NCBI GenBank assembly: GCA_950295325.1
Contig: OX485805.1
Coordinates: 26,337,501 to 26,401,500 of the forward strand
Direction: 5' to 3'
Length of the DNA: 64,000 nt
DNA from: Polytrichum commune
Lineage: Eukaryota > Streptophyta > Polytrichopsida > Polytrichales > Polytrichaceae
In this document: positions 21,283-57,948 of the stretch, piece after piece
Position numbering within the stretch: position 1 is the first letter of the stretch
Layout: every line of letters starts with the position of its first letter
The notes under the pieces: model-generated
Databases searched by the model: none
What the model saw: the letters and a program-made list of their open reading frames with translations, nothing else
What the model was told of the DNA's origin: nothing
Program-made: the position numbers and the translations under genes

Positions 21283-21313
<31 letters not shown>

Positions 21314-21540
21314 AAGAAGAAGAAGACACTCCACACGTTGACACATGGCGCAATGTGAGGGTGTGGGTTGACTTCTTTGGTGGTTTGCATTAATGACAAA
21401 TTTCGTGATACAAGGGAGAGAAATGTGACAATAAGGAGTGAAATTTGAACTACGAACATCCATTCCCTGAGGTTTCAAGATATTAGAGAGTGTGTGACAT
21501 TATGGAGATTGACATTACGGAGTTTAGGGTGTATCGTGTT
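19880..21540 (-). repeat. TTC-carrying repeat R3, copy 2 (inverted, split)
   Basis: 19,880-20,160 is the complement of 4,195-4,480, and about 21,045-21,540 is the complement of about 3,730-4,195. The roughly 900 bp between are absent from copy 1, so either copy 2 has an insertion or copy 1 a deletion. The intervening part includes the weak repeat shared with 12,153-12,639 and a short G-run at 20,417. No gene recognised. Confidence 0.7.
21284..21325. repeat. (AAG)n microsatellite inside R3
   Basis: About 14 AAG units, equivalent on the opposite strand to the CTT run at 3,938-3,972. Confidence 0.95.
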
Positions 21541-22620
21541 CATAACATCATTAAGCGATGTGCATTCGTTCATGTGGGCCCCGAGATTCAATTTTAATTT
21601 GCACAAGCTGCAACATCCCATGGTTATAACCTCGAGACCCACATGAACAAACGCACAATGCTTAATAATGTTATGCCACTTGACTTCCGGTCCAACAATG
21701 CCATTCTATGTCTGTATGAATCTATAGTCCTCTACCAATGATTGTTTTGAAACTTTCTTCTTTTGTAGATGATTCGTAAAACTGTCTGCTCTTGTGTGTA
21801 CCTCAGGAATTGCACTCAATTGATGCATGCTTGCAGACAGCATTTATTATATATTTGACAATTCGAAGCATCTTCGACTTTGTTGTAGAATCGAGGTTGT
21901 TGACGAAATCAGTTGAAGTAGTTGCACCTATTCCCAACACTTTAAGCTAGTTTGAGTACTTGGAATAGTGCAATATATGTGTCGATGATCTCGTTGGACT
22001 AGCCTTTCAAAGTGGATATGTGATTCAATTTATTTGAGTTATCTCTCATTATCTTACAAAATCTTGAAGTCAACATATTCTAGAGTTCATGGTGGTCGTA
22101 TATGGACATCCGTTTTTGCTACCCCTCTCGTTCATGATCCACCTTTCGAAGAGTAGCATCTACTAGAATATGATATTATAGCCTTGCATGAAACCTCATG
22201 ATTGTGAGATCCAAGGACTACAAGTGACACGCCACACTTGTTGGTGGTGCCCTACATATAGTTCATTAAAGTTCAAAACTAGCACATCCATAGCCCTATC
22301 CATGTCGAAGCCATCAATTGTCTATGTCACAAGTATGCCACAGGGTCGGATTGCCATTGCTATGCCTTCAATTGGTTTATACATTATTGAAAACTACATA
22401 AAATATGTTTTTTGTTCATTACATCTTTAATTAGAGGTGTTCATACTAGGTCACAAGCAAAAGTAAGTGCACCCACCACAGTCCACTTGGGAAAAAAAAT
22501 AAAAAATGCAAGTTCAAGCGAGGTTCAGGCTGATGATGAGATCAAGTAGGTTGGGGCCAATACATATGCTTACATCTAAGTTCATATTGTGGGGGGCTTG
22601 AATGGGTGGGCTTCAAACTA
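21541..22620. other. Intergenic DNA, no gene recognised
   Basis: An 80-codon plus-strand frame at 22,188-22,430 has no recognisable motif. No repeat ends were seen. Confidence 0.45.
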
Positions 22621-27170: not shown

Positions 27171-27179
27171 CTTCGCAAG

Positions 27180-27222
27180 GGAAGACGTTAAATACCCCCC
27201 CACGAACTTATAGGGGGCACCT
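27180..27222 (+). repeat. Left terminal inverted repeat of the outer MULE
   Basis: About 43 bp, including the internal mirror 'taccccc' and 'tagggggca'. It matches the complement of 57,897-57,939 with two mismatches. Weaker similarity continues inward ('gcagggctgcccg'-like). Confidence 0.95.
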
Positions 27223-27974: not shown

Positions 27975-30340
27975 ATGGAAATGGCCTCCCGAAATTCTGT
28001 TCAAGAGAAGGCGACCACCCATTTCTCCCGCAATTTGTCAAATCCTCAATCCAGTGTAGAGTGCGATGATGACATCCCACAAATCGCTCCTGCAACATTT
28101 CGTGCAATGCAGGCTGATCTTATAATTTCGTTGAGAGAGAGAGTTCAAAATCCTCCTCCAGGTGCATTTGCTATGGACGACTTGGTGTGGACCAACCACG
28201 TTACACAAGGTCAAGGGATACAGAAAACCTCTAAGCTAGCTGTAATATTGTGGGAGAGACTTGATGATTTCATTAAAGGCGAGCAACAACATCCTCAATT
28301 TCCCTGCAATTTTACCAAGGAAATCGTCCGTGTTAACTTGCCAAACTCCTTGCGAACACCTCGTGCACACAGTCCTGCTATTGTACTGAGGTTTGACCTA
28401 CTGCCTGCTCTGAATTTGAAACCACACACTATTCATGTTCTGCTTGTCATAATGTGCTCACCAGCCAAATATCAAACTTATGCATTTCATTCTACACTCC
28501 ACAATTTGCAGTACAATGTCCTTACTGTTCATGAGGGTGTATGGATTCCATGTCCTGCAAATATGTACATATAAAATTTTACATATTCAATACATGTGTT
28601 CTTCCATTGCCATTGCAGATACAGGTGCAATTTTGGTCCTGAAGATAGGAGTGATATTGTTGCGTATGATATGCAAGCTTTACTGAAATCTACAAAAAAA
28701 AAAAAAAACAGAAGATGTTGCAGAAGAAAAAGCGAGGTAAGAAGGTAATACCGGAATACGAGTCTTTCGCAGTGAGCAAATCAACCCGTCCAAAGGCTGC
28801 GCGCATTGGCAAGACATATGTGGGCAACTCAAGAAAGCGAGGGTGCCAATGTTGTTTTCTTGCGAAGAAGCCCTATCTGGACCACTCGTTGTGTTTGCTA
28901 ATTTATGAAAATGCAGAACACTTGAACAAAGCTGGAGAACACTGCCACGGCACCATGCTCGGTGGATTTAGATATGCGCTCGGTGCTGGTCTTTCAACTG
29001 AAATGAAACAAAAAATTGCTGAAATGCATGCCTATGGGTTATCCCCTGCCCAAATCATGCAACAACACACCAAAGAGGTTCGTGAGCTTGCCGTGTGTAA
29101 TGGAGTGGTGACGCGCGACACATTCTTGTTGCCGTGCGACGTCAGAAACATATGTCGAAAGAGGGCTGAAGATCTATAGGAGAAACATCCGTCCGACCCG
29201 ATTAGCGTCCGTATGTGGGCAACAGAGAATCCAGACAGCGTGTTCTACTACCAAGAGCACTCGCTACTGGACCTTAATTCTCAAACACAAGACGACTCAC
29301 CTTTCACCATAGGCATACAAACTGAATGGCAACTTGAAAAGATGGCAAACTTCGGTCACAACAGCGCTCTTTCCATTGACGCCACGTTTGGTACCAGCCA
29401 GACTAGGGTAAGCTAATGTCCATGTCCTTCATCTTCGTCGTCATGTTCTGTGATGATTTTCTCATACTGCCAGTCAATTTGTTTCAACCATGTTCTGCCC
29501 TATGCTAACAATGATGTTCATTGTTTCTATAGTACCCACTCTACACTGTTATGGTGTTCGATGATTGGAGAAATGGCATACCAGTGGTTTTCTTTGTCAT
29601 TTCGTGGACACGTGAACAAGATCTCCGCCCAGTTCTTCAAGCGCTGCATGACAGGGTTCAAGGGTTCAAAAATGATTGGTTACCATCCTCTATTATCGTT
29701 GACAATGCTCAGGCTGAAATAAACACACTTGGGTAAGCAGTTATTGTCTGTTCTGCAACTTTTACTTTGTAGTCTCACCCCAATATGTAATGCAGTGTTC
29801 TGCATTGCATATTGGTGTTAATTATTAATTCCTCACTGTTACAGGTATTTTCCTCAGTGTTCATCCTCTGAGCTCATAATCTGTTGTTCTGTCTCTTGCG
29901 CAGCATGGTGTGGCCGCAAGCCAAAATTTTCCTGTGCTTGTGGCATGTCAGAAAGTCATGGGCAGAGAACGCCATCAAGAAAATTTCAAGCGCTGCAGAA
30001 CGCAACACTGTTCTTCAAATGCTCGGCGACATAATGTACGGGAAAGGTTGCAAGGTTGAGGATGATCCTATCGACTGGGCCCTCGACCAACTTGACAATA
30101 TATCTAACACTCGTCCATTGGCGAGTGCGTTCATGACATACATGAACGATGTTTGGCGAGTCAAGACACCAATGTGGTACGTCGGAGCGCGACGGATACC
30201 ACATGCAGGACAGAACACTAACGCGGCTATTGAATCCTATCACAACAATTTGAAGAGTGTTCTAAACTCTGCCAAAGAGAGATTTGTGGGTAGGCGCATG
30301 GATCTCACGGGTGACGTTTTGACTCATTACTGGTACAGTG
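27975..30340 (+). pseudogene. Outer MULE transposase, N-terminal and catalytic part (split gene)
   Basis: A Mutator-family DDE transposase would cut and reinsert the element. Exons: 27,975 to about 28,560; 28,619-29,407; 29,533-29,732; 29,904-30,340, joined by GT-AG introns. Catalytic features are in order: Leu-Ser-Ile-Asp-Ala-Thr-Phe (first Asp), Ile-Ile-Val-Asp-Asn-Ala (second Asp), Cys-Leu-Trp-His (the C-x2-H of MULEs) and Ala-Ala-Ile-Glu-Ser-Tyr-His (Glu). The second exon has a run of about 15 A at 28,694-28,708 across which the frame shifts, and an in-frame TAG at 29,177-29,179. At 30,340 the gene is cut by the nested MULE. The reading resumes at 48,199 in the same phase. The Met at 27,975 was chosen because it opens the first frame showing family-like sequence. 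Confidence 0.85.
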
Positions 30341-30415
30341 GGACGAGACTTGTATGTGAGCGGTGAGCAGAGAGCGGAGAGCAGAGAGTGGCGATTTGGA
30401 GAGCGGAGAGCAGAA
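30341..30415 (+). repeat. Left terminal inverted repeat of the inner MULE
   Basis: Starts GGACGAGACTTGTATG, then 'gagcggtgagcagagagcgg' and further GAGAGCGGA-like units, ending with 'gagagcggagagcag'. It pairs with 48,115-48,188. Confidence 0.9.
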
Positions 30416-30909
30416 ATGGTGTAAAAATAGGAAATATTCTATATTAAATTTAGAATTTCCTTAAAATAGTACAGGAATATACTTAGAATATTCCAGATTA
30501 TGCCAGAAATAGAAAAAATTTGGGACCTATTTCCGTGGAATGTGTAGGCACTAAATAAAATAAATGCCTTGAATTTGAAATGGTCTGATTTAGTTTGGGA
30601 ACCGTGAAGTGCAAAAATGATAGTAAAATTGTGATATAATAAATAAGTAGATGATGAAAACCAAGGATGATCCCAAGATGTATAGAGACACATGATACAG
30701 TTGAGTATTGTAATCCAACATTTTGAGTTGAATAAAAATAATCCATGCGATTGTATTTATTATATTATTGAGCTGACAATCTTAAATTATTCAATGAAAA
30801 TCTTATATCACTTAGTCTATGTCGTACTCGATTAGAAACATGGATGAATAGGCACTACTTCATCGATCTATCATGTTGATGGGAGAAAGGGACACTCCTA
30901 GAGTAAATC

Positions 30910-33900
30910 CTAGGTCCGATCTAAAGGGTGAGTTAAAATTCCACTCTCGAGAATTACTTTGACCTCGTTGAAGCTGAAGGTTGGCGCGTGGATGAAAAGG
31001 TCTACATCAGGATTGCGATGGCAGACCTTTAAAAGAATATAGTAAACATGCTTGCAATACGAGAATTGATTCCGCCCTCGAAAGTTGGTCATTGTCTTCT
31101 TGAACGCAGGGCATGTGCAACCCGGGAGGGAACTGATGGTGATATGGTATTGTGTCACATCGGGTGGCATCATCGAGTCTAGCGCAATGATGCAGCCATG
31201 GCCAGGGTGAGGAATCATTGTGACCGAGCGGAGTTGAGCATTGAGGGAGTCCGAAGAGCCCATGGATAGCCGCTGCTGAGGGTTTGGACGGGTTGCGGTG
31301 CGCTTAACGAGCTTCCCTTCTCTCTTCCCAGGATACCTGTCCGCATCTGCTGGCACCGGCACGGAGTCTAGATTTGCCGGAGACGGTGCAGTGGAAAAGA
31401 GCCTTCTGGGTGAGACTGGCACTTTCTGCGGCAGTTGGAATCCGGCCGCCTCGAGGGCCAGGATCTCACATTGCTTGAGGTTAGTGCCAAGTTTCACTGG
31501 CCAAACATCCGGAATGCTTGGTCTCTCCTGTTCCGCAGAGTATTGAACAACCCATTTGCGCCTGCTACCCTTAACGCACCTATGGATATCATCTGAGCAG
31601 AAGAAAAACTCTGTGGTCTCTTTCACATTCCTCCTAGTGCTGTGCCATAGACCGGTGTACGTAGGGGCAGGGGTTGATTTTGCACCCCTTACGATTCTCT
31701 CAGTACACTTCTTTTTGGTGACAGCTCTCTGTGCCCAACAACATTTGGCAGAAGTCTTTGGCAACCGAGCGATGTGCCACTCCTTCACGTTCACCCTAGT
31801 CTCCTCGACGGCAGTGACGTGGCTGATCCGTCCCTCGGGGATGTGGGACGGGACGACATTGTCGGCATATGGCGCCATGGGTGCAACTTCCGGGACATTG
31901 GAATCATCCTCTTCAATAATTATGGGCATGTTAGTGGAACGAGTCCGGACAGCCCTACCAGAGCCACGGGGATGTGAGAAGTTGACCTTATCAGGTCTGT
32001 GCGACTCCTCTTCTGCTCCAAGAGGTAGATCTGCTTTCCGTTTCGTGGACCCGAATACCTCTTCCCCAGCCATGCAAGGCACCCGGGTACAGAACTCTTC
32101 TGCTCCAGGCATGTCCATCATGGGGTCTTCGAGGACTAAAGGATTACCCGTTTGCTTCGCCCTGCGCTCTGCCAACCTTAGCTTGAGCTCTTTCTTTGTA
32201 GGGCCTGTACCGCCGACATCACCTTTCAGGAACTGGTAGTAATTGACAACCTGTAGGAAGCCTCAAACGAAGTCGTCCACGGTAGCAACATAGAGGTCGC
32301 CGCCGCTATTTCCAGACGCTTGAAGCCACTTGTTGTGTATTGATTCGGCGAGATTACATGAAGGCATTTCTGCTAGTTCTCCTTCTGTAAATTTCTGCGT
32401 GCACATAGTGGAAGCAATTATAAATTGGAGAAGAGTTGTGAAAATTACAGTGAAAGAAAAAAAAAACAACAAGTTTTGGGACAACATACCCCGGTCATGA
32501 AGCCTCCCCATTGGCGATAACGGAAATGCCAGAATGCAAGCCAGAGCTCCAGTTTGTCAAGTGCCTTCTCTGTCACTGCCCCGGCGGATACCCACCATGC
32601 ACGTAGCCCGTGGTACAGGTTTTCCGCTTCGTCCATGGTCCTCGCGGTCCTATATTGGTGGCACATCTTCTTGTGCTGCTCCCAGAGTTCTTCGGGAATG
32701 TATTTCTCGGTATACTTAACCATAGATTGGGTCCAATGAAACTGACAGGTTCTCTCCCGGTCATCCATGCGGTCCTCCTTCTTCCCGTTGCCATATATGA
32801 CCCGAACTGCATTCCAATTGGCCTGGGCGCTGTCGGCCATGAAACCCTTGAAGTTGGTATCGACAACACCATTCCTCTCCATCACAGCATTGAGATTCTT
32901 CCAAAAAACGATATGGGCATCACAGTCCTCCGATTGCATGTCACAACTTGCAATGGTCATGACACGACAATACGTGGAGTCATACACGTGGCATGCCATT
33001 GTGGTCCATTGTCTAACCCGTTTCACATGGTCGAACATCATCCAAGCATTCTCCAGATCTTCGCCGGGCTGCATACGCTTCACCAAGTCTACCCCACTAC
33101 CAGGCCCGACTTCCGACATCTTGAAGACAAAAACCTTGTCAAGATCAGCCCCTTGACCAGGGAATTTGTTCTCCTGAACAAAGGCCCATAAACTGATTCC
33201 ACGGAGTTTGGTGATAGAGTCCATGACACCATACCTTTTGAGGTATCGGAAGCTCATGACCTTGTTGCGGATGTTCGGGGAAGCCATGTCCTTGCACCGG
33301 TCGAATACAGGAACAAGTTCCTCCAGAGTGAGCTTCTTTGGTGGCGCGTCATCGGATTGAAGAAGATAGTTGCCAATTAGAACTTTGCTAGCCTCCAACA
33401 CAAGTGCACTCTTGGTAGCCTGAGGAGTCTTCTCGATCTGTTCTTCAATTAAGCCACTGATCTCAGCCTTAGTGTCTCTGTAGTCGCCCACCTTGACAGG
33501 GTGATCGTGAGTTCCAATGTGGATGCACGCTCTTGTGTGGTTGTTTTTGCCAGCAACATAATAAATTTTCGCTCCACATGTAGCAATACATGTTGGGGGT
33601 TCTTTACATACCTTGCAAACAAACGTAGAGTCAGGTGGGGGCGCTTGATCCACTACAAAGGCTTGGAGGGTACAACCTTCAAACTCTGTCTCGTTGACTT
33701 CGAAAATACGAGGTCGGCGGATCAAATATTCGCACTCCTTGTTGTTGCAACGCAGGTGTCCAACGCAAGCGGAAGAACGGAAGGACAAACCAAAGTCGTT
33801 TGTGATGTTGGTGGTGATGGTCTTCGTCCACACATGGCCGTCGTAACGCTTGTCCATTCCCTGCATTGACTTGGCCTGTGACCGTGCGGCCGTGTCACTA

Positions 33901-34706
33901 GCGGGTGGCAACTCAAATATGACGACACCATCGAACTCAGCAGGAAGGTACTCTACTCTCTCGTGTCTAATCACTGAGTAATCTAATTTTTTTAGAATAT
34001 TTTTTTTTCCCGGCCTTCCTGCAAGTTGTTTTAGCAATGGAAATATGCTAACAGTCTCTTGGGACAAAGGATATACTTTAGGAGCATTCCCACTAACTAT
34101 AACCTGAGGCGGGGGCTTGGTGGGACTGCCCTCTTCATCTGAAGAAAGTGTAATTACAGACTGAACTCTAACGTTTTCTACAATTGGCGTGTCGAGACCG
34201 GGCTCGAGCTTGACCTTCACATCACGTGGCAGAGGAGTTTGAATGGTGCACGTAGAGGAATTACGAGGAGTGAGGATCTCAGTAGACGCAGCCATCTGAG
34301 AATTAGTGAGGCCATACACTCGGTAACTACCTGGAGGAAGACTCCAAAACAAGTTATTGTTCTCATCTCGCTGCGATACCCGACCAAGGGTGTATGTAAG
34401 TTCTGACGTGACAACATCAAAAATATCCTCGTCAACAATAATAGTATCCTCTCTGAAGCCGAACCGAATACTCAGACGTTGGGACGTCACGTAAGCTAGA
34501 CCGTCCTCTTGCATCCGAAAGGTAACTGGGACTCTCACACCATCTGCATAGAGGACAGCCAACCCCAAGTCTCCAATAGCAGGAATATGAGCCATGATAA
34601 GGGGAATGAGCCCTTGCGGCAAGATGGAAATATGAAAGAGGATTCTAAACATTGTGGGCCATCTATATATTACAAATGGGCTGCCAACGACAACGACATG
34701 ATCCAC
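30910..34706 (-). pseudogene. Inner MULE transposase (two exons, one premature stop)
   Basis: A large MULE transposase, 1,233 codons if read across one stop. Exon 1 is 34,706-32,490 (739 codons) and exon 2 is 32,394-30,910, joined in phase by a GT-AG intron. Residues about 280-420 form a Cys/His cluster resembling WRKY-GCM1/FLYWCH DNA-binding folds (Cys-Asn-Asn-Lys-Glu-Cys, then His-Ile-Gly-Thr-His). The catalytic core has Asp576 (Val-Tyr-Asp-Ser-Thr-Tyr), Asp625 (Met-Ala-Asp-Ser), Cys654-x2-His and Glu756 (Asn-Leu-Ala-Glu-Ser). A SWIM zinc finger (Cys-Thr-Cys-Pro, then Tyr-Cys-Lys-His) lies near the C-terminus. A TGA at 32,263-32,265 (codon 783) follows the Glu and removes the SWIM region. 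It may be a CGA-to-TGA CpG decay. Otherwise the frame is open, so the damage is recent. Confidence 0.9.
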
Positions 34707-36589
34707 ATGATGGATGAACTCTGAACGAAAGCTTCACTAATATTTTCAATATGGAAACAGCCGCCCTTGGGTCTAAAAGTGATGGGTAACGCTGTCACGA
34801 TATATATAAGTACAGCGTGCAAGTCATGGTAGACATTCTACTCGACAAGCAATTAAATTTGATTATTTGGCGCCGACTTAAAGCATGTATCATAACTAGG
34901 TCTAGAGATAGACTTGACGTTTCAAGACAGGAATAGAACGAATGACAAAGACCCAATTGGGCATTAAATATAGGACTGTCCCTCGTGCGAACACTTGTAT
35001 AAGATCTCGTGATACTCAACTCCTTTGTTTTAGAATCATAAGTTATGGACTCTCGAGTGCCGTAAGATGTGTTCGGTTCAAGGGAGGATTTTGGGAATGT
35101 TGGAGTAGACATGCTCTGGAAGGGTGATACCTGACATGCAAAATCATATCAAGAGAAGGAAAAAGAGAGGGAAGTTGTATTTCAGTAGCACTAAGGCATT
35201 GAAAACAAGTAGAATGGGAAGGAAGAAGGCACAACACGAAAGATACGAGACAAATGGAATTAACAAAGTTTCCCTCCCAAACGTAGAACATCTTGCCAGA
35301 AAGGTGTGTAAGGTAAGGGTCAATTTGAATTAAAATTGAAAATGCAGTGGAGCAGTTACTTAAGTTAGTCATGATCATATGCCAATCCAAATTAGATATA
35401 TTAATAACAAACATGAGGCTGGATGCCGAGTGACGTACTTATAAATACACCAGAGACCACGTGAACCATTTAGTGGATATAAGGGACACCCTAAAGTAAA
35501 GTGTTTCTTTTGGAGTGGAAGATTGAAATGGGCAAGGGAAGAGCATTAACCTTTAAGGAGAAGCTAGAATAAGTTAGTTTAGTTGGAAGAGTATCGTCAA
35601 GGTATGGCTATACAGAATATTTCTTCTAATTAGTTTAGTTTGAATTATGTATTATCATTTGTACTATCATTTTTATTTTTATAAAACATGATATTCTTCA
35701 TTTTTAGATTACTTCTGAATTATTTCTATAAATGTTATTAGACATCTGTGTCCATTCTTTTAATGTTCATTTTTATGATTCCTTATATGTTTATAGCAAC
35801 TTGACTGTAATCAAAACATATCGACATTATGTGAAAAAGATTATGGGATGGAATATTAGTGTGGATGTAATACAGGCGAGACACATACATTGATAGAGTG
35901 ATGTTCACATAGGAGGGAAGTGTAGAATTTGTGAAGCCGGTTCAGTTACATGACAGGGTCCTCGCCGATAGAGTTAGTGAAACCAAAGGCGAAGAGGAGG
36001 AGGAAGGCATTTTTCTCAAGCAGGAAGCAATTAAGGGCATCTAGGATGAGACAACCGAAACAACGATATGATAGCTTAAACAGCACAGTCAAGGCATTGG
36101 AATTCTCCCCAGACCGCACACGGTCAAGGTCTCGTATACGGAGAAGCCAGACTCACAGTGGTGAAGACATTGCTAGCAAGGAAGCTGGAGTGGGTACGAC
36201 CAGACAAGTGGAGATATCACATGATCTATCGAGAATTTGCGAGACCCAGGTATGAACCTCAAGTCGATGTTAACATATATGCACTAGAAATTAGGGGTTG
36301 TATTCGTGAGCTAGAGAAGGCAACAAGTGTGGGCCCGTTGAAGCACTCGACATCACAATGAGACCGTCACAAGTGGAAGGGAACAAGACTGCCGCGGCAG
36401 TAGCCTACCATCGTTCCCCGCATTACAACGGACCTCTGAACTAGGCTTGCAGGGTTGCAGCCACGATTTGGAGCGGGGGAGTGACTCGAGGGAAGGGCAG
36501 TGGTCGCCCCGTGGAGAGGTTTGAGGTGAGAGCCCTGGGGGATGAAATTTGAACCTCGCAAATGACTTTAGATGGCTGGTTTAGGGTTG
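34707..36589. other. Intergenic part of the inner MULE
   Basis: Between the transposase start and the satellite. Two related basic frames occur on the plus strand, 35,124-35,333 and 35,950-36,255. Both contain a Lys/Arg-rich stretch followed by Phe-x-Ser-Ser and Ser-Arg-Met, so a duplicated short segment is present, but no family was recognised and no gene is called. The promoter of the transposase should lie just above 34,706. Confidence 0.45.
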
Positions 36590-39500
36590 GCAAAGGGCTC
36601 CTTAGTGAGGTATGAGGTGAGAGCTGGATGATCCTTAGTAAGGTTCAAGGTGAGAGCTGGGGCGGCAGAAATTTTGGTGGCTTTGTAGGGTGGCTGGATG
36701 CTCTTAGTGTGGTTCGATGTGATAGCTTAGGGGCCAGAGATGAGAGGTGATCATATGAATTTCGGTGGCTGGATGGTCATAGTGAGGTTCGAAGTGGAAG
36801 TTGAAGCGGGCGGTGCGGTGCGGTTCGGTTCGGTTCCTTCGTTCGTTCGTTTCGTTTCGTTTCTTTCATTCTTCAGCTTTCTTTTTCAGCATCCTTAGTG
36901 AGGTTAGAGGTGAGAGTTGGGGCAGAAATGTAAGGTTATTATCTGATTTTTGGTGGCTTCCTAGGGTGGTGGATGGTCCTTAGTGAGGTTAGAAGTTAGA
37001 GCTAAGGGCACTGTCGGATCCGACAGACCCCTAGGGGCAGATATGCGCACCTCGCTTTTTATTTTCGGGAGGTTAGAGGTGAGAGCTAGGGGCAGAAATG
37101 CGAGGTTATTATCTGATTTTTGATGGCTTTCTAGGGTGGTTGGATGGTCCTTAGTGAGGTTAGAAGTTTGAGCTAGGGGCACTGTCGGATCCGACAGACC
37201 CCTAGGGGCAGATATGGACACCTCGCTTTTGATTTTCGGGAGGTTCAAGGTGAGAGCTGGGGGCAGAAATGTAAGGTTATTATCTGATTTTTGGTGGTTT
37301 CCTAGTGTGGCTGGATAGTCTTTAGTGAGGTTAGAAGTTAGAACTAGGGGCACTGTCGGATCCGACAGACCCCTAGGGGCAGATATGGGCACCTCGCTTT
37401 TGATTTTCAGGAGGTTAGAGGTGAGAGCTGGGGCAGAAATGCGAGGTTATTATCTAATTTTTGATGGCTTCCTAGGGTGGTGGACGGTCCTTAGTGAAGT
37501 TAGAAGTTAGAGCTAAGGGCACTGTCGGATCCGACAGACCCCTAGGGGCAGATATGGGCACCTCGCTTTTGATTTTCAGGAGGTTCAAGATGAGAGTTGG
37601 GGCAGAAATGTACGGTTATTATCTGATTTTTGGTGCAGCCTAGTGTGGCTGGATGGTCCTTAGTGAGGTTAGAAGTTAGAGCTAGGGGCACTGTCGGATC
37701 CGACAGACCCCTAGGGGCAGATATGGACACCTCGCTTTTGATTTTCGGGAGGTTCAAGGTGAAAGCTGGGGGCAGAAATGTGAGGTTATTCTCTGATTTT
37801 TGGTGGCAACCTAGTGTGGTTGGATGGTCCTTAGTGAGGTTAGAAGTTAGAGCTAGGGGCACTGTCGGATCCGACAGACCCCTAAGGGCAGATATGGGCA
37901 CCTCGCTTTTGATTTTCAGGAGGTTAGAGGTGAGAGCTGGGGCAGAAATGCGAGGTTATTATCTAATTTTTGGTGCAGCCTAGTGTGGCTGGATGGTCCT
38001 TAGTGAGGTTAGAAGTTAAAGCTAGGGGCACTGTCGGATCCGACAGACCCCTAGGGGCAGATATGGACACCTCGCTTTTGATTTTCGGGAGGTTCAAGGT
38101 GAAAGCTGGGGGCAGAAATGTGAGGTTATTCTCTGATTTTTGGTGGCAACCTAGTGTGGTTGGATGGTCCTTAGTGAGGTTAGAAGTTAGAGCTAGGGGC
38201 ACTGTCGGATCCGACAGACCCCTAAGGGCAGATATGGGCACCTCGCTTTTGATTTTCAGGAGGTTAGAGGTGAGAGCTGGGGCAGAAATGCGAGGTTATT
38301 ATCTAATTTTTGGTGCAGCCTAGTGTGGCTGGATGGTCCTTAGTGAGGTTAGAAGTTAAAGCTAGGGGCACTGTCGGATCCGACAGACCCCTAGGGGCAG
38401 ATATGGACACCTCGCTTTTGATTTTCGGGAGGTTCAAGGTGAAAGCTGGGGGCAGAAATGTGAGGTTATTCTCTGATTTTTGGTGGCAACCTAGTGTGGT
38501 TGGATGGTCCTTAGTGAGGTTAGAAGTTAGAGCTAGGGGCACTGTCGGATCCGACAGACCCCTAAGGGCAGATATGGGCACCTCGCTTTTGATTTTCAGG
38601 AGGTTAGAGGTGAGAGCTGGGGCAGAAATGCGAGGTTATTATCTAATTTTTGGTGCAGCCTAGTGTGGCTGGATGGTCCTTAGTGAGGTTAGAAGTTAAA
38701 GCTAGGGGCACTGTCGGATCCGACAGACCCCTAGGGGCAGATATGGACACCTCGCTTTTGATTTTCGGGAGGTTCAAGGTGAAAGCTGGGGGCAGAAATG
38801 TGAGGTTATTCTCTGATTTTTGGTGGCAACCTAGTGTGGTTGGATGGTCCTTAGTGAGGTTAGAAGTTAGAGCTAGGGGCACTGTCGGATCCGACAGACC
38901 CCTAAGGGCAGATATGGGCACCTCGCTTTTGATTTTCAGGAGGTTAGAGGTGAGAGCTGGGGCAGAAATGCGAGGTTATTATCTAATTTTTGGTGCAGCC
39001 TAGTGTGGCTGGATGGTCCTTAGTGAGGTTAGAAGTTAAAGCTAGGGGCACTATCGGATCCGACAGACCCCTAGGGGCAGATATGGACACCTCGCTTTTG
39101 ATTTTCGGGAGGTTCAAGGTGAAAGCTGGGGGCAGAAATGTGAGGTTATTCTCTGATTTTTGGTGGCAACCTAGTGTGGTTGGATGGTCCTTAGTGAGGT
39201 TAGAAGTTAGAGCTAGGGGCACTGTCGGATCCGACAGACCCCTAGGGGCAGATAAGGGCACATCGCTTTTGATTTTCGGGAGGTTCAAGGTGAGAGTTGG
39301 GGCAGAAATGTTAGGTTATTATCTTATTTTTGGTGCAGCCTAGTGTGGCTGGATGGTCCTTAGTGAGGTTAGAAGTTAGAGCTAGGGGTATTGTCGGATC
39401 CGACAGACCCCTAGGGGCAGATATGGACACCTCGCTTTTGATTTTCGGGAGGTTCAAGGTGAAAGCTGGGGGCAGAAATGTGAGGTTATTCTCTGATTTT

Positions 39501-40549
39501 TGGTGGCAACCTAGTATGGTTGGATGGTCCTTAGTGAGGTTAGAAGTTAAAGCTAGGGGCACTGTCGGATCCGACAGACCCCTAGGGGCAGATAAGGACA
39601 CATCGCTTTTGATTTTCGGGAGGTTCAAGGTGAGAGTTGGGGCAGAAATGTAAGGTTATTATCTGATTTTTGGTGCAGCCTAGTGTGGCTGGATGGTCCT
39701 TAGTGAGGTTAGAAGTTAGAGCTAGGGGTACTGTCGGATCCGACAGACCCCTAGGGGCAGATATGGACACCTCGCTTTTGATTTTCGGGAGGTTCAAGGT
39801 GAAAGCTGGGGGCAGAAATGTGAGGTTATTATCTGATTTTTGGTGGCAGCCTAGTGTGGCTGGATGGTCCTTAGTGAGGTTAGAAGTTAGAGTTAGGGGC
39901 ACTGTCGGATCCGACAGACCTCTAGGGACTGATATGAGCACCTCGGTTTTGATTTTCGTGAGGGTCAAGGTGAAAGCTGGGGCATAAATGTAAGGTTATT
40001 ATCTGATTTTTGGTGGCAGCCTAGTGTGGTTGGATGGTCCTTAGTGAGGTTAGAAGTTAGAGCTAGGGGTATTGTCGGATCCGACAGACCCCTAGGGGCA
40101 GACATGAGCACCTCGGTTTTGATTTTCGGGAGGGTCAAGGTGAGAGTTGGGGCAAAAATGTAAGGTTATTATCTGATTTTTGGTGGCAGCCTAGTGTGGC
40201 TGGATGGTCCTTAGTGAGGTTAGAAGTTAGAGCTAGGGGTACTGTCGGATCCGACAGACCCCTAGGGGCAGACATGAGCACCTCGGTTTTTATTTTCGGG
40301 AGGGTCAAGGTGAGAGTTGGGGCAGAAATGTATGGTTATTATCTGATTTTTGGTGGCAGCCTAGTGTGGCTGGATGGTCCTTAGTGAGGTTAGAAGTTAG
40401 AGCTAAGGGCACTGTCGGATCCGATAGACCCCTAGGGGCAGATATGGGCACCTCGTTTTTTATTTTCGGGAGGTTAGAGGTGAGAGCTGGTGGCAGAAAT
40501 GCAAGGTTATTATCTGATTTTTGGTGGCTTTCTAGGGTGGCTAGATTGT

Positions 40550-41838
<1,289 letters not shown>

Positions 41839-42199
41839 GCGTTTCTTCTGCTTTCTTTTTCATCGTCCTTAGTAAGGTTAGAGGTGAGCGTTAGGGGCAC
41901 TGTCGGATCCGACAGACCCCTACTCCTATTGGCAGATATGGGCACCTCGTTTTTTGTTTTCGGGATGTTTAGGGTGAGAGCTGGGGGGTGGAGGTTTAGG
42001 GTGGCTGGATGGTCCTTGTGAGGTTAGAGGTGAGAGCTAGGGGCACTGTCGGATCCGACAGACCCCTACTGACAGATATGGGCACCTCGCTTTTGATTTT
42101 CGGGAGGTTTAGGGTGAGAGCTGGGGGTGGAGGTTTAGGGTGGCTGGATGGTCCTTGTGAGGTTAGAGGTGAGAGCTAGGGGCATTGTCGGATCCGACA

Positions 42200-43060
42200 G
42201 TCCCCTTGGGGCAGAAATGTGCACCCGAATTTTTTATTTTTATTGGACTTTTTGGTAGGCCAGATGCTCATTTGGACAGGTATTAGTTGGGGGTTAATGC
42301 ACGTTAGTGAGGGTTTAGTCATGTTTAGATGCTCTTAGTGTGGTTCGAATTGATAGCTAGGGGGGGATTTAGAGGTGCTCTATAATCTGTTTGGCCTTTA
42401 AGGGTTTGGGATGCTCTTAATGTGGTTCGATTTGATAGCTAGGAGGGGCACAAACTAGAGGTCAGATTATAGTGGAGAGAAACAGGGCAGATTTGCTAGC
42501 ATATTATGTGAATTATGGTAGATTATGTGGGTGGCCGAAAGCTCCCAATGAGGCTAAGGTTAGAGGTAGGGGTCTGAAATGTGTTTGTTAGCACCTGAAT
42601 ATTTGTGGCTGGCTTTAGCTTGTGAGGTATGATATGGAAGCCCAGGGGCACTGTCGGATCCGACAGTCCCCTAGGGGCAGAAATGTGCACCCAAAATTTG
42701 ATTTTTGTTGGACTTTTTGGTAGGCCAGATGCTCATTCGGGCAGGTATTAGTTGGGGGATTGTGCACGTTAGTGAGGGTTTAGTCATGTTTAGATGCTCT
42801 TAGTGTGGTTCGAATTGATAGCTAGGGGGGGATTTAGAGGTCAGATTATATTTGAAAGAAACATGGCATATTTGCTAGCATATAATCTGATTTCGGGTGG
42901 ATTTTGGGGGTAGCTGAAAGCTCACAAGAAGGCTAAGGTTAGAGGTAGGTGGATTTTGTGGATGGCCGAAAGCTCCCAATGAGGCTGAGGTGAGTTTGGT
43001 TGTATTATCATGTAAATATTGGGTGGCATTGTTCATTCTATTGGTTCTTATGTTGGTAAG
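42200..43060 (+). repeat. Duplicated block between satellite and ParB-like gene
   Basis: A block of about 360 bp occurs twice, near 42,210-42,560 and 42,660-42,950. Shared words are 'ttggactttttggtaggcc', 'gtgagggtttagtcatg' and 'gatagctagggggggattta'. It connects the last palindromes to the gene and may hold its promoter and an untranslated first exon; an AG acceptor sits just before the first coding exon (near 43,071). Confidence 0.75.
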
Positions 43061-43086
43061 TAATTGATTCTCAGGAGATTGTTGAG

Positions 43087-46000
43087 ATGGTTGCGGATGG
43101 AGAGTCATTGGATGTTGGGGTTCGCATTGGTGCTGGGTCATCCCTTAGTGTAGAGGAGCATATGGAGCAAGGGTCTCCGTTGTCATGTGCTGAACCTACT
43201 GGGCTTACACCTGGTAGTGGCGAACCGCAGACACCCGGGATGACACTCACCGGCTCACCACCAGAATCGGATATGGGTGTTCGTGTAATGGAGTATCGGA
43301 TTCGCCACAATTTAAAAAAAGATAGTTTTTCAGTTGTTGAGGGCATGAGGATACAACCGGTCGAAAAGTCCTCTATGAGAATCCCTCTCTGCAGGTTGAT
43401 TCACATGCCATTGGTTCGGCCAACTCTCCGCAGCGACGTTACAAAGCTCATGGCAGCATTTCAATTTGGATACCGAGCTGGGTCTGCCACTTTTTATGTG
43501 TCTACTGCAAATGAGAGTGGAGAGAATCGATTCATTTCTGCCAAAGACAAGCGTGAATGGGGAAAGCTATGGAATGCAGAAAATGATAAGTTTGAGTTTT
43601 TTTTGCGCTCGGATAAGGACTTGATGAGCCTTAGTGGATGCATGTTCTTTGTGTATGATGGTAACCACCGCTTGCTAGCGTGGAAGGAGTGTATTGAAAC
43701 AGATCACAAGGACGATGCACTTTGGTATGAGAAACATGGTTGCCCAGAATGTGTCATCCTCGACACAACGGGTGGGCGTGGAGACGTCCTTAATGCAATG
43801 CACGACATAAACAAGTAAGTTTGTTATTTTTTTGAACATTTTTTCCTTCATTTTTTTATTTTCATCTAATGCCATTTATCTCAACCGCAACAGGGCTAAC
43901 CAGACTGCGCACGTTAAGACTAGCCTTGTTCACACTCTACACCGCATCCAAAAATACGGTTCGTATGATTTTAGCTACTACCAGCCATTGTTGACCGAGG
44001 AGCAATTCCAAGCGTGCAAGAGCAGAGGCCCCAAGAGCCCTTGGTACCCGCTGACCCAGGATCTTATGGTGTCCTTCATTTTCAATGTAAGTCACTCCAA
44101 ATTCATCAAGCTCCTACTTCGCATTCATTACTTTTAGTCATGGTCTAACAATTTAGAATACATGTCCAGCAAGAGATAGCCGATGCGGTAGATGAGGCGG
44201 CCCAAATCTTCAAGGAGGAAGTGCCTCTAGATGAGCAGTCAGGGAAGGGGTTGAGTGATGTATTGGACGCTGTAATTAAGAAGACGTCTGAGGAACTTGG
44301 GCACAAGTTCAATAAACAACAGTCGATCGCAAACCCTGCCCTTGGAAAACAGTTCCTAGATGAGGTAATTTCCTTGTCATCCAATTTGGAATTATGCTTT
44401 TCGTATTGCTTGCATTCTTTGCAGCATTTTTTCAGTAAACATTTTAAAATTTACTTGGCCTTCTATTTTGATTGCATTTGTTTCAGATTACTAGGCATTA
44501 TAGCGCCCACCATTCTCAAAAGATTGAGATGACATTGGAGAAATTGCAACTCATTGCCACTGCCGCTGTCGAGCCAGAGTATAAAGCCCGTTGGCTTAAG
44601 TGGTGGAACAGTGGAAGTTTCAATCGTGAAGCTATCCGGTTTCCCAAAAGTCCTGCAAGCGAGGACAACTTGAAATCTTGGCTCAATAAAGCAGCGTTCT
44701 GGGCAGGGGTACGTCTATCCTATTTTCTTTGCTTACCTTTCAATTCTTCATTTTGTGCCAATTCTCATGTTCGCCTTGAATTCCTTCACAGCTAGAGGAT
44801 GCTGCGGTCAAGGAGTTACCGGATATACTAAGTGCATTGGGTGGGCTTGACGGAGACGTGGAAGTTGATTCGTTGCCGGATTACTTGGAGAAGTGGCGAA
44901 TTTGCCTTTGGGATAAGGCGTTCATTGGTCACTTCTCAGGGTCAGATATCTATGGAAAGGGGACGTGGTGGAAGGATGTCAAAGGCGCTGACAACATTGT
45001 CAAGCGCTTAATTTTCCGGTAAGTTAGTTGGGCCATCTTTTGTTCTCATTTATATCAAACTAGTTGTTTTCTAAGTTGCTTATTGGCCTCACTCCTTGGT
45101 TGTGAAGGTACATCAAGCACGAGCTTTTCAAGAAGAAGGCTTTGAAGAAGCTTCCTCCATTTCTGGATGCATGGTCGGATTCCTCTTCGCCCACCTTCAT
45201 TTTTTCCCCGGCTCAAAAGCGCAACTTCTCCCTCCCGCATCTCCGCGAGTGTTGCTGGTACTTGGAGTGTAAGAGGACGTGGCAGCCGGATGAGGAGGCG
45301 GCCTTGAAGATTCGGCTCTCCGGTGGAGAGCCACCTTCTCAAAGCGATGAGGTTGTTCTTCTAGAGAGTCAGCTTCCGGAGGCGGATGAGGTTGTTGCGA
45401 CTCTCGATGAGCCCAACACTCAGAAGTCCAAGAGGAGGAAGCGTGCGACTCAAGACGAGTCTTCACTAAAGAAGCGCGCGAGGAAGCTGAAGACTGTGGA
45501 GGATGATCCCCCTGCTTCACCTGAGGCGGCAGTTGCATCCACTGCAACTCTTAGTCAAGTTCCTACTCTTTCCAGGCCGCCTCCTCCGCCCGTTCTTTCA
45601 TCTGCTAGGCGTCCTCCAGTTGTTTCAGAATGCATCTTGAATGCCTCTATTCTTCATCAACGTCGTCATTTTCAGGATGTTTCCAACTTCATTCTTTCTC
45701 TTCCACCCTCCTATCCGCGGAGAGCTCTAGGCGTTGCGAGGTCAGATGTGGGCATGGCTGATCTTGTCATTGCCGACCTCCCGGAGAACCTGCCGGTACC
45801 CAATGTCTCCGATCCTTCCTATAGTGTGCCTTCCTGGAATGCATTGGATTCCGATTTTATTGGTGAACTCTTCGATTTCGCGGACGAGATCCTGCATGAC
45901 GATGGAGCTCTCCTCCTCTTTCATCCAGATGACAATGGTGATTTCAGGGAGAGCATTGAAGACCACTTCGCTGCTTTTGGGTTCACGATCTTCAAGGAGT

Positions 46001-47018
46001 GGCTGGGAGTCAACCGTCTTCGCCTACATTCAGCTAAGCATAAGGACAAGACCACCAACCTCTTCCAAGTTGTACTACTTGTTCGTGCCACCAAAACAAT
46101 TGGATCTGACCTTGATAAGCGGCCCCGGCACTCGTCATTTCGCCTTCGCGATGCCAATGAGCTCAAGGCTCTTGGCATTGAGCTCGACATGGATGATGCG
46201 ATTATGAATTATACCGCAACTCCTCTCATGGACGGCTCCAAAGCTTGGCGTGGTCCCCGGGAGAAAGATATTTCTTTCATGTCCTCCTTGATCATGGCCA
46301 CTACGGACATTGGACAGGTTGTGGTGGACATTAATGCAGGCGTTGGTATGTCCTAATTCACTTGCCAACATATCCTAGTTTTCAATTTCTAAGTTTGTTT
46401 TTTTTTCCTTTGCTAACCTTTCCTCCGCAACAGGGACTTCTATCCATGCATGCAGGCAGCTTGGGCGCCATATCGTTGCTCTTGAGGAGGACGAGGACAC
46501 CTTCAACCGTGTCCTTAAGCCACTTAAGAGTGTTCAGCCTACGGTGAAGGCTCCATCCATTGTTGTTGCTTCCACGCAGGCTTCACAAGGCACGCAGAAG
46601 AGGCCGCCGGCCTTGAAGCGATCGAGGCCAGAGCCCTCGCAGTAAGTGAGTATGATGACCTTCTTCGCTTATTTTCTTTGTCCATTCAGCTTTTACACTT
46701 TCCATCCTCTTTCTTACATTTATCGTGTTTTTTTTCAGACTTGGCGTTGGAGCGGATGTGTTGGGTACTCCCACCATGGGATTCACATTGCCTATCTATG
46801 CCCATGATATGGCGATGGTACTAGCGGCACAACCTTCTCCTACCGAAGCTAGTTCCCCGTCTCCACGTTATGACCCCCGTGCCTTAGACTTCTTCGAGCA
46901 TTCTGCGGAGGTGGATAATGAGTGCCATAGCTTAGATTCCACTTCAGATGAGGGCGGCCATGAGGGTAGTATCTTTGGAAGTAGGGAATCTAGTAGTGAC
47001 GACCTCATGGTTGATTGA
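43087..47018 (+). CDS. ParB-like / beta-class DNA methyltransferase-like protein, inner MULE cargo
   Basis: Eight exons join through GT-AG introns into one open frame of 1,096 codons: 43,087-43,814; 43,894-44,086; 44,170-44,364; 44,487-44,708; 44,792-45,018; 45,108-46,345; 46,434-46,641; 46,739-47,018. Every junction keeps phase. Residues 191-195 (Asp-Gly-Asn-His-Arg, then Leu-Leu-Ala-Trp) match the ParB/sulfiredoxin-like core. Residues about 628-650 are basic and NLS-like. At 742-748 Val-Ile-Ala-Asp-Leu-Pro-Glu stands where motif IV (Asp-Pro-Pro-Tyr) is expected, followed by Gly-Ala-Leu-Leu-Leu-Phe-His. At 929-952 Asp-Ile-Asn-Ala-Gly-Val-Gly-Thr through Leu-Gly-Arg to Glu952 corresponds to motif I. 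Motif IV before I is the beta-class order. Altered motifs suggest a weak or dead enzyme, perhaps a DNA reader. Met 43,087 is the first in frame; an upstream exon is possible. Confidence 0.85.
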
Positions 47019-48114
47019 TTTTGGGTTTGATTGATTTGTTGGTTTGATTTATCGGTATTTGGATTTATAAAGTGTTGTGTGGATTTCAATATTCCAATTA
47101 TCTCATTGAATGCATCTTTTCGTTGTTCTCAAATCACGCTTCACTTGGTGGTCGTCATACTCCAAAGAGAATTTAGTCCACCATCTTCTCACAATCTTAA
47201 CCGCTAGTCACAAAACAATGTAGCATCCACCCACTCCAATAAAAAGTTGTTGCCTCACACACCTCCTCCTTGTTTCCTTGAATCATAAGTATTCAATAAT
47301 ACTTGTTGCACACCACCCAACACACTCCAATTCATACTACCCGCATTGCATTCTTCATTTTTGTTCACCATCTATAATGTTCACCCTCAAATGTTCACCC
47401 TCTATAAATGTTAACCCTCGGGAGTGGATCGAACTTTACATGTATAAAGGTGTTAACAGTTAACAATTATAAAATTACTTCTTTGAACAATATGCAAATC
47501 TTAACATGTCCTAACTATAAGCAATTGTGAAGAGTAATTGTGAGAGAATATCATACACAAAATTGCAAACCCAATCAAAACTTTATTCAATATCAAGTTT
47601 ACAAATCATGGGTGAATTATGAATGTATTTCAGTCGTTAACATTTATAGAGTCAAATTTACAAAGAAGGGAACACCGTTTTGTTAACAATTAACAGGTTT
47701 AACATTTATAGTGTGCAATATGTAGGGAGTAGAATAAAGTGAACGTTTGGAAATGGTTAACACTTATAGGTGTAACAGTAATAGAGGGTGGACTGTATGT
47801 GGAGAATTTTTTTCGCCAACCTCCTTCGTGTCACGTTCAAATAGTAAATATTATTTAATTTACCGTAATATAAAATATAGTACACCATTTTGGTAATTAT
47901 AATTGTGACGTCATAGTGATGTAAGCCCTAATTTTGTATTTTATTTTAATATTTCTATGTTTCAAAAATCTATTAACTTTATGAATAGGAAAATGTTACT
48001 TTATTTCCACGGTAATAGAGTCCATAACTCTCCAAAGTTTCTAAAAATAGTTCAACATTTTTCCCTCAATCCCGCGGTTATAGGTGCAATTTCTCTCTCA
48101 TTTCATGTCTCAAA
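47019..48114. other. 3' flank of the ParB-like gene within the inner MULE
   Basis: AT-rich, containing several 'gttaacaattaac' and 'aacacttatag' words between 47,440 and 47,780 that may be degenerate repeats. No gene recognised. Confidence 0.5.
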
Positions 48115-48188
48115 TTGAGTTCTCCGCTCTTCGGTCTTCGCTCTCCGCTTTCCGCTCTCCGCTCTCCGCTCGCATACTAACTTTCCCC
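48115..48188 (-). repeat. Right terminal inverted repeat of the inner MULE
   Basis: A series of 'cgctctccgctttccgctct' units ending 'gcatactaactttcccc'. It is the inverted partner of 30,341-30,415. Confidence 0.9.
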
Positions 48189-48845
48189 TGGTACAGTGTC
48201 CAATGCAAAGCATACGGATATATACGCAACAAGAAACAAGAGGGTATTGTTGCATCTGCAATTATGGGAGCCAACGACATACCTGATAGTAACGTCCTCA
48301 TTTGTATGGACGAGGATGTTGCATATGTGGGGTCTGTAAACAACCGCCCGAAGGTGTGGACCATCAAATGTCCGGACTCTGAATGGGCACAATGCAACTG
48401 CCCCGTCGCCAAAGAGGGCATGATTTGCAAGCACACCATTAAAGTCTTCAAGATGCTCCACCCTGGAATTGAAGATGGTGCCATAGTGCGTGAAGCTGGT
48501 ACACGACATGGAACTCAGCGCGCCACTCCAATTGCGCGTTGCTACGCAGGACTGTCACAACAGACTACTCAAATCCATGTTCCGGAAGACATGGGCACAC
48601 CAATCGAAGTTGAACCTGTGGTGCAGGACAATGTTCTGCAAATTGATGTTGTCGAAGATCACATCACTCTAACTCCTGTGGACCCTGTGACTGTGGACGA
48701 CGAACAGAACCCCTCGCAGTTCTCCTCTCAATTTACCCAGATGGACTCCTTCCATTCGACTCCCCTTTCCCAAGAGAGTTCTTCACAAGCACCTACTGCC
48801 GCAACCGCGCACGACATTTACGCCACCCTTTGCACTCAAGGCTGA
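48189..48845 (+). pseudogene. Outer MULE transposase, C-terminal SWIM part
   Basis: Continues the transposase cut at 30,340. The duplicated target TGGTACAGTG encodes the same Trp-Tyr-Ser on both sides, and the frame after 48,198 follows in phase. A SWIM zinc finger is plain: Cys-Asn-Cys-Pro-Val-Ala-Lys, then Ile-Cys-Lys-His. A Ser/Thr/Gln-rich tail follows to a TGA at 48,843-48,845. SWIM domains are a usual C-terminal module of MULE transposases. This half has no internal stop. The frame extends upstream into the inner MULE's terminal repeat only by chance. Confidence 0.88.
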
Positions 48846-50082: not shown

Positions 50083-53000
50083 TTACCTCACACAATGTAA
50101 GGGGGGTCTATCTCTCACGCTCTTTGTATACTCCATGATATTCTTCAACATGTAGAACCCGCAAGCCCAGCCATAATTTTGTTGTGGCACAATTCCTTGT
50201 ACCCACTGCTGGGACGAGCTAACAGCATTCCACATATCAGCATCGGTATCATTGCCACTCCACGCAGCCCACAACTTTCCGAGTCTTGTTTCAATTCTGG
50301 GGTCGGAATGGAGACCTAACCCTACCAAGGAATCGAGATGGAAGAACCCGTGTTCCCCTACTAAGTAAACGGTCCAATGTTTCCCGCAGGTATAAGGAAC
50401 TATTAAAGTGTTTATGTTCTGCGTTGGAAGGGCTCCATGCACGTCATGTATGAAGGCTACATATACCTCTAAGGTGTCTTTTTCTTGCTCCTGAAGATGC
50501 GCTAGGAGCAGGTTTAGAAGATAAGGACTGCAAATGTGACACTTTAAACTCTCAAGTTGGGGATTCAGCCACGCCCTAATCCATTCCATCATGTAGTTAC
50601 TCAACTCCCCATGATTTTGAACCAAAGGCTTCATATCCCCTTTCCACTGTAGACTCAAATTCTCACCACGATACAGAAACTCAAAACTTGCAACTTTCTT
50701 CCCACCTGCTTCAGCAATGATGGTGTTCACAAGTTCCTCAAGTCTGCAGAACACAGCCTCATGTATTAGTCTCGTAGCCAGCAACATCAAAGGACGGTAT
50801 GAATATTATGTTCTGCATCATTAACACTACATAAAAGTTACCTTCCATCCGATTTTTGTGTTGTACTGCCCAGTACGTCGTCCAAAGTTTTGTCCTCCTT
50901 AGGCTGGACAGGACGGGAGCTGACCTTCACTGGCTCAACATGTTCCTCCACCTCTGATACTACCGGGCACGCAGTGCGAGTTGAAGTGGTTGCATCCTTT
51001 GTCGCCGTCGAAACTTCACCCATGTTCTGGACCGAAGTGGATGCATCCTTTGTCGCCGTAGGAACTTCACACATGTTCTGGACCTCTTTGTAGGCGTCAT
51101 TGAAAAGTGCGCCTATTTCGTCCGCTGCAGCACCAACGTCCTGCGAGCATCCGGATGAGTCCAATGGTTTGTTGTGGGTGCAACCAGTAGGGGTAGTGTC
51201 GTCGAGGTTCAACCTCCGTGCTGGAGAAACCATTGTCCTGCCATCCGGAGGCCCTATTGCAAGCGTGTGAGACGGCGTCATGTAAAACCACGGTCTTGTG
51301 TTGACCATTTAGCAAAAGGCATAGGTGGAAGGCGCTTAATTGAACTCATAGGTTGATAAGGGTGTGGTATGAGACACGAACCTTAATGGCGTGTTCTGCA
51401 TCTCATAACTAAGCTGTGTTAGGGTTAGGTCCTGCGTGCTGATGCGGTCGACGCCATCGAAATCCATGTGCATAGGTATTGAGTCCAAACTCTCCAAACT
51501 CATGGCCTCATGTACTTCATCCCCGAACCCCAGAGTTGATCGAGATGATTTTTCCATAGGCATCGCCACCTCTTCGAACAACAACGCCCTCGTGCAATGT
51601 AGGTTAGGGGCAATGTCATCTGTTGTTTCCTCCACTCCCAGTCCACAATTGAACAACCGCAATTGGGTGGACCTTACATATTGCAAGCTCTGTACTATAT
51701 CCTTCACCCGCATCTGCACGCAGGTGCTCTTCTTGTGCAGGTCACCCAATGTCAATGTTCCTATGTCAACGTCCTCACGGAAGACCATTGATGAACACAG
51801 GACCTGCGCCACATATCCTTCACTTACTTTGGCCATCGTATGTTGTTATACCAGTACTGTTCTGCACTATATAATACTATATTGTTTTACAATCAATATT
51901 CAAAATGTACTGTTAGACATATCATGTTCCTATTAACTCCCAATCGTCATAGTGAAGAACATGCTAAACCCCGAGGGTGATTGTCAGATGAACAGGACTC
52001 AGTACATACCTCGCTACACTTCGCTTGGCGTTGCTCTCCGACGTCGACACTGAACCACATGTCAGCAAGCTCACTTTCACGGTGCATGCGGACCATGTCT
52101 GCGATGGCTCGTTGCGCGATCCTACCGATGAAGGACTCCATTTTCTTAACCACAGCCATGCGCCCTGATGGTTCATGTCCAAGCAGAGCTGCAACGTCTG
52201 TGAATAGGACATCAATGTGTTCTGCGGCACTCTCGATGCTGGGGAAAGTACACCAACCTGTTGTAGGGATGTTCTGGGCAATTGTCGTCAAGGCAACTGA
52301 GTGGACTGTGTCTCGAGCAAGCTCCAATATGTATTCCTCGTGGAGACCTATAGTTGGGTGTGAGATTGGACGACTAAAGCCCGTATGATTTCTGACCAAG
52401 TACAAAAATGCTCTCAAAACATGCGGGCACTCACGCTCAAGCGACAGAGGCTCGGTCTTCGTGTTCGACAGCAGAACAGCTGACATCTCCAGCCACTCCT
52501 GTTCTGTGTGGTCCCATGGGCCAGCCTTGAAATTTTTTAGAGGCCATTTTCTGAATATCTGGTACAACGGTGACCATTTCCACTTGGACTCCTCCTCCTT
52601 CTCTTTCACGGCGCTGTCAAATTTTCGTAACGCGTCTTCGACGTGATTTCTTCTAAAATTCTCAAAGTTGACCTTGGCGGCAACAACCTTCTCATCGTAC
52701 TCCCTTTGTTCGACGCGATAATGAAGATAGTCTTTCAGGCCCTGAGCTCTTCATACACGTTCACATCGGAATTGCTCTTAAAAACCCTGACTTGCGCCTT
52801 TATTTTATCCAAAAATTCGCTATGTTCTCCAAGGTTCTTCTGCAATGTATACACCGGCAGAACATAAAAAAACGTCTCATTATAAGAACATAATATTGTA
52901 CAGCCAATATGATCTGGTAGAACATGAGATGATAGAGCACATTCAAAATTGAAGAACATGGAGTGAAACACAATACCATATTTTTGCCATACAGGTACCA

Positions 53001-57896: not shown

Positions 57897-57939
57897 AGGT
57901 GCCCCCTATAAGTTCGTGGGGGGGTACTTAACGTCCTCC
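57897..57939 (-). repeat. Right terminal inverted repeat of the outer MULE
   Basis: Complement of 27,180-27,222 with two differences, ending 'acttaacgtcctcc' before the target duplication CTTCGCAAG. Confidence 0.95.
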
Positions 57940-57948
57940 CTTCGCAAG

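Follow-up and report, generated by a model that had tools for sequence, protein, structure and literature searches.

A gene whose product combines a ParB-like domain with a DNA methyltransferase-like domain lies inside a transposon of Polytrichum commune, and the question is what such a protein may do for the element that carries it. A preliminary description of this DNA had proposed a bacterial or phage-type module recruited by the transposon, perhaps to read or mark DNA. The ways in which transposons evade sequence-specific silencing are poorly understood, and VANC is the only worked case known to us. The window analysed was a stretch of 64,000 nucleotides; its features are listed in Table 1.

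Table 1. Features of the inner transposon and of its ParB-methyltransferase gene (window positions).
Feature	Position	Strand	Basis or remark
Whole inner transposon, 17,848 bp	30341-48188		ends common to 11 copies
Target site duplication, left copy (TGGTACAGTG)	30331-30340		10-bp duplications, 11/11 copies
Target site duplication, right copy	48189-48198		10-bp duplications, 11/11 copies
Left terminal repeat, GGACGAGACTTGTATG... then GAGCGGAGAGC repeats	30341-30409	+	
Right terminal repeat, reverse complement GGGGAAAGTTAGTATGCGAGCGGAGAGCGG...	48121-48188	-	
Two open transposase segments of 762 aa and 450 aa, separated by an intron	30910-34733	-	
Array region, 25 copies of palindrome CTGTCGGATCCGACAG (20 exact)	36900-42760		
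ParB-methyltransferase gene, 8 exons, 1,096 aa	43087-47018	+	splicing of window DNA; sibling comparison
Gene exons 1-4	43087-43814, 43894-44086, 44170-44364, 44487-44708	+	
Gene exons 5-8	44792-45018, 45108-46345, 46434-46641, 46739-47018	+	
ParB/Srx-fold domain, about residues 94-243	43366-43814	+	model, profile
P motif GNHR	43660-43671	+	within DGNHR, residues 191-195
Motif IV position, ADLPEN replacing (D/N/S)PP(Y/F/W), residues 744-749	45772-45789	+	
Motifs X, I and II, residues 904-955, spanning the exon 6-7 junction	46252-46495	+	

In-phase joining of the eight GT-AG exons yielded 1,096 codons plus a stop. The chance of this many open codons was approximately 1e-23, as calculated from base composition before allowing for splice-site choice. 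The same eight-exon frame with GT-AG at all junctions was recovered from 10 other genomic copies, and the gene described earlier was thus confirmed by splicing and by comparison. The frame was open in nine of the 11 copies including that of the window; the remaining two carried one stop each.

The structure model of exon 1 matched the ParB/sulfiredoxin (Srx) fold, in agreement with the ParB-like domain claimed before. The Gly-Asn-His-Arg core that had been noticed near residue 191 was located as claimed and corresponds to the P motif (GxxR), which was present as GNHR within DGNHR in 48 of 52 rows. According to the available part of a survey (PMC12704722), the ParB-CTPase fold binds CTP, ATP or GTP, and the GxxR motif defines the P motif. 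A canonical ParB also has an HTH domain, a dimerisation domain and a ParA partner; a Pfam scan of the full protein returned PF01555 only, and the middle region yielded no recognisable HTH.

PF01555 scored 25.0 bits in the full protein against a cut-off of 26.7. A homologue of exons 6-7 (P0094) was modelled as a beta-class DNA methyltransferase; the model was built with a read-through intron and reached a mean pLDDT of 53. The fold of this homologue and the profile match below cut-off together upheld a beta-class N6/N4 methyltransferase region. The motif order IV then I was also found as described, and it is that of the beta class: motif IV begins at residue 744, the motif X-like GPREKD occupies residues 904-909, and motif I (VVVDINAGVGTS) occupies residues 926-937. 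Bacterial beta-class enzymes ranked first among the structural matches, which also included the related Rossmann fold of the METTL3-METTL14 and MTA1-MTA9 type. Pairs of that type contain catalytically dead partners with a changed motif IV, but differ from the present protein, which has the motif order IV-X-I and matches the bacterial enzymes best.

The catalytic motif of the beta class is (D/N/S)PP(Y/F/W), and it occurred in none of 34 rows. Motif IV read D-x-P-[E/D] in 28 of the rows, and its aromatic position was occupied by E, D or N. That the protein marks DNA is questionable, since every row examined had a changed catalytic motif. An active methyltransferase, in which the altered motif IV still functions and the element's own sites receive N6-methyladenine or N4-methylcytosine, would agree with the fold and motif order of active beta-class enzymes and with the D of motif IV, which was kept in 33 of the 34 rows. 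Such activity was proposed for an Ectocarpus Sola1 protein in the available text of PMC12477816. Against the complete absence of the catalytic motif, this explanation is considered quite unlikely.

A bacterial or phage source, as initially proposed, stays a supposition, with no convincing sequence relative in phages, viral contigs or prokaryote genome contigs. Exon 1 gave no match in the viral contigs and, among 50,697 phage records, matched a single tail protein weakly and in part (E 0.6); the exon 6-7 alignment gave no match in the prokaryote genome contigs, and sequence searches of solved structures returned nothing convincing. A full-length protein query recovered none of 7,990 scored candidates at E 0.01, probably because introns split the gene. 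Exon queries at E up to 1 recovered 78 of 280 candidates and, in a second search, 43 of 7,997 scored candidates.

The enclosing transposon of 17.8 kb was verified by comparison of 11 copies. Their terminal sequences were identical, with two copies differing slightly in the length of the terminal repeat, and each copy was flanked by a 10-bp target duplication of its own sequence. The window itself shows an 11-bp direct repeat around the element; comparison with the 10 other copies assigned the final C at the right end to the element and reduced the true duplication to 10 bp. Target duplications of MULEs measure 8-11 bp, and those of all 11 copies fall within this range. The MULE transposase domains PF10551 and PF03108 had no Pfam match in either transposase frame, and a weak SWIM match (E 0.11) stayed below the cut-off. 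The duplications and this weak match are MULE-like features, but the search gave no MULE-specific Pfam domain; the inner element is consistent with a MULE-like transposon.

When the flanks were joined without the inner element, an outer transposase frame was open over the junction. The inner element therefore interrupts the transposase gene of a second element. This outer element occupies positions 27177-57942, with 46-bp inverted ends (96%) at 27177-27222 and 57897-57942. A Ulp1-type peptidase frame (PF02902, E 1.3e-5; 50086-50805, minus strand) belongs to the outer and not to the inner element.

Exon 1 was used to search the genome of the window (408 Mb, 64 contigs), which resulted in 150 scored matches among 1,133 candidates. 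Ten copies with 98-99% identity in exon 1 were chosen as siblings. Outside the central array they were 99.6-99.9% identical to the window element. Both transposase segments were open in seven siblings, and both genes in five; a premature stop between the two transposase segments is private to the window copy. The element is recently active and the family is young. A search with the transposase gave 59 scored matches from 2,374 candidates, and at least 26 of these had a divergently oriented ParB exon no more than 35 kb away (0.9 expected at random placement). This number is a lower bound, because 89 of the 150 ParB matches were counted and the 61 omitted were fragments and low-identity rows. 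The transposases accompanied by the ParB gene were 49-100% identical to that of the window.

The divergent orientation of the transposase and ParB genes recurs in several element families, and between the two genes lies an array of tandem units with one palindrome each. The last palindrome of the window precedes the ATG by approximately 430 bp (433-434 bp in the siblings). In the siblings, 8-23 core sites were counted, all inside the array region, and the length of the array varied; 36,552 bp of sibling flanks contained none. These arrays, which were absent from the preliminary description, strengthen its suggestion that the protein reads DNA. The protein probably binds the array palindromes. 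A run of GAAGGA (353 bp, approximately 59 copies, 99% matching) is located at 41485-41837, between two palindrome arrays of the element.

Alternatively, the gene could be hitch-hiking cargo with no role in the element, and the arrays products of slippage in a growing satellite. Other large tandem arrays exist in the window, the arrays of the siblings vary in length, and the variant codons of these near-identical siblings (10 synonymous, 21 non-synonymous) reveal no constraint. However, the gene is open in most copies and co-occurs with transposases of widely differing identity, the core of the palindrome is conserved across different backbones (see below), and three other window arrays that were tested contained no perfect palindrome of at least 12 bp. 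Hitch-hiking is considered very improbable.

Divergent relatives of the gene were used to compare sites and proteins. A shared core, TCGGNNCCGA, was found in the arrays of seven of the eight relatives examined (ParB 41-89% identical). Relative M (ParB 57%, transposase 74%, second transposase segment 88%) contained two arrays with different units, both with GGTGGTCGGGTCCGACCACC, and L037 (ParB 52%) had the palindrome and unit of M. The array unit of relative N (ParB 46%, transposase 49%) contained GGTGTCTCGGCCCCGACACACC. The palindromes were TTGTCGGATCCGACAA in L038 (ParB 89%), AATTAGTGTTTCGGGCCCGAAACACTAATT in L033 (ParB 46%) and GTGTCTCGGTCCCGAGACAC in L034 and L036 (ParB 42% and 41%), whose units are the same and near-duplicates. 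No array was present in the 2.5 kb of upstream sequence covered at L035 (ParB 41%). In N (L031/L032), a second array with the same core was observed downstream of the match to exon 6 of the ParB gene (joined and turned coordinates 16447-17647) and is possibly intronic, like some VANDAL arrays.

The palindromes of the units exceeded those of shuffled units, of which 0-10 in 500 reached them. Comparison of the backbones of eight representative units, seven of them with the core, gave no pair better than E 0.09, except for 33 bp common to two M units. In nine of nine arrays the palindrome was less variable than the backbone, significantly so in eight (p 0.0094 to 2e-10; p 0.19 in the M322 array), in a test that is biased towards this result, since palindrome similarity served to choose the units, and in which the near-duplicates L034 and L036 were both included. 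The centre of the palindrome varied by clade (AT, GT, CC, GC or TC). The GATC at the centre of the window palindrome would suit an active methyltransferase, but it is not common to the clades, and GATC as a common target was ruled out by the differing centres.

The transposase has to be considered as a reader of the sites as well. MULE-type transposases bind DNA of their own element, and the array was located between both genes wherever both were seen. The palindromes could be transposase binding sites, such as internal subterminal repeats, unrelated to the ParB protein. The terminal repeats of the window element, however, are devoid of the palindrome. Moreover, the L039 region is located on the upstream side of a transposase 89% identical to that of the window, yet its ParB is distant and its array palindrome, GGTGCCGTTAACGGCACC, lacks the TCGG core, whereas N, with a less distant ParB, keeps the core next to a transposase of only 49% identity. 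Binding by the transposase is improbable in the light of this contrast, and the palindrome seems to track the ParB protein and not the transposase. The protein-site link consists of one contrast plus conservation, because only L039 breaks the core. The contrast between L039 and N points to the ParB-methyltransferase as the putative site reader and to a possible exchange of the cassette between elements.

L039 was at one point taken for an element without ParB; this was ruled out when a divergent ParB gene was found beyond its array. This gene encodes a divergent ParB domain followed by a related middle region, and the domain is 32-36% identical to six others compared and 38% identical over 162 residues to that of the window. 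L040 was uninformative as a ParB-less comparison element, since the region holds retrotransposon frames. Judged by eye, these encode a reverse transcriptase, an integrase and a PHD-like finger, and a related transposase lies downstream of them.

Algal transposons that encode a ParB-methyltransferase protein have been described before. The available text of PMC12477816 describes Sola1-1_Ec32 of Ectocarpus, a Sola1 element of 21.5 kb with a ParB-plus-DNA-methyltransferase gene opposite the transposase; it cites green and red algal transposon cases (Iyer 2011; Petroll 2025) and proposes that the role lies in binding and modifying the sequence of the element itself. By this description the two genes are alike: each lies on the other strand from the transposase within a giant DNA transposon and encodes one protein of approximately 1,100 aa (1,104 in Ectocarpus and 1,096 in the window) that combines a ParB-like with an N4C/N6A methyltransferase domain. 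The transposase superfamily differs (Sola1 there, MULE-like here), and a palindromic site array is present here, while that text mentions none for Sola1-1_Ec32. In the text covered by the literature search, palindromic arrays were nowhere mentioned together with ParB-methyltransferase proteins, and ParB is unmentioned in the available part of PMC12695648. Relative to these sources, the new part is the palindrome array and its co-variation with the ParB protein. The survey of ParB-CTPases, in its available part, reports frequent fusion of this fold to N6_N4 methyltransferases in phages (PMC12704722). Such phage and prophage proteins share with the present one the two domain types in a single protein and the link to mobile elements; introns, a long middle region and the altered motif IV distinguish the gene described here.

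A second parallel is provided by the Arabidopsis VANDAL MULEs. In the available part of PMC5735166, VANC proteins bind a short motif that recurs many times in tandem arrays, remove methylation and diverge together with their target motifs. Common to both systems are an accessory protein of a MULE or MULE-like element and a short motif that non-coding tandem repeats carry in many copies, with protein and motif varying together, which in the present case comes from one divergent pair. VANC consists of DUF1985 and DUF287 and recognizes the 9-base motif YAGTATTAY; here a ParB-methyltransferase is combined with a palindrome, and neither DUF had a Pfam match in the protein at E up to 1.

Based on the VANC model and the ParB-CTPase survey, palindrome-based self-recognition is proposed, most likely in the service of anti-silencing and autoregulation. 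In this proposal the protein would bind the palindromes, probably in dimeric form. Given the density of sites it could coat or mark the element, possibly by the NTP-gated clamping that ParB performs at parS. The methyltransferase fold, in which the catalytic motif is altered, would serve mainly in DNA or SAM binding or in dimerisation and not in the usual methylation. As a result, the element would escape silencing and its own promoter would be autoregulated, much as VANC proteins achieve for VANDAL elements. That the product is an accessory protein recognising the element's own DNA, with this net effect, is given an even chance. Anti-silencing as the very purpose of the protein, argued from analogy, is tentative and leans towards doubt, and ParB-like spreading over the element is rather unlikely. 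The system offers a second candidate for escape from silencing, with a protein unrelated to VANC, a testable protein-site code and several natural ParB-methyltransferase/palindrome pairs within one genome.

A ParB fold and a clustered palindrome beside its gene form the layout of ParB and parS, and the present protein, with its P motif and neighbouring palindromes, resembles it. A ParABS-like system that segregates or maintains the element in an extrachromosomal form would have this layout, but the scanned element frames of at least 150 aa included nothing ParA-like, and each of the 11 copies is integrated and flanked by target duplications; such a system is extremely improbable. Further differences from ParB and parS are the fused methyltransferase, the lack of an identified HTH and the location in a nuclear transposon. 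A eukaryotic counterpart of ParB and parS is unlikely as well: by analogy, a ParB clamp would load on its cognate palindromes and spread, the methyltransferase fold would be re-purposed, silencing-resistant chromatin would form, and protein and site would be a co-diversifying cassette that can be paired with different transposases. If palindrome-based self-recognition is true, the ParB fold would act as a DNA-recognition module inside a nucleus, and the ParB-methyltransferase genes of algal transposons would have a purpose.

Two further repeats were observed. Long inverted repeats approximately 17 kb apart (3719-4012 and 21248-21541, with neighbouring arms) are probably the ends of another nested element. 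Palindromes of 24 bp with the form TGGACTTCCAT-ATGGAAGTCCA occur in the array region of the window at 40745-40768 and on the reverse strand of L035 near 1607 and 1884, and perhaps represent another mobile element.
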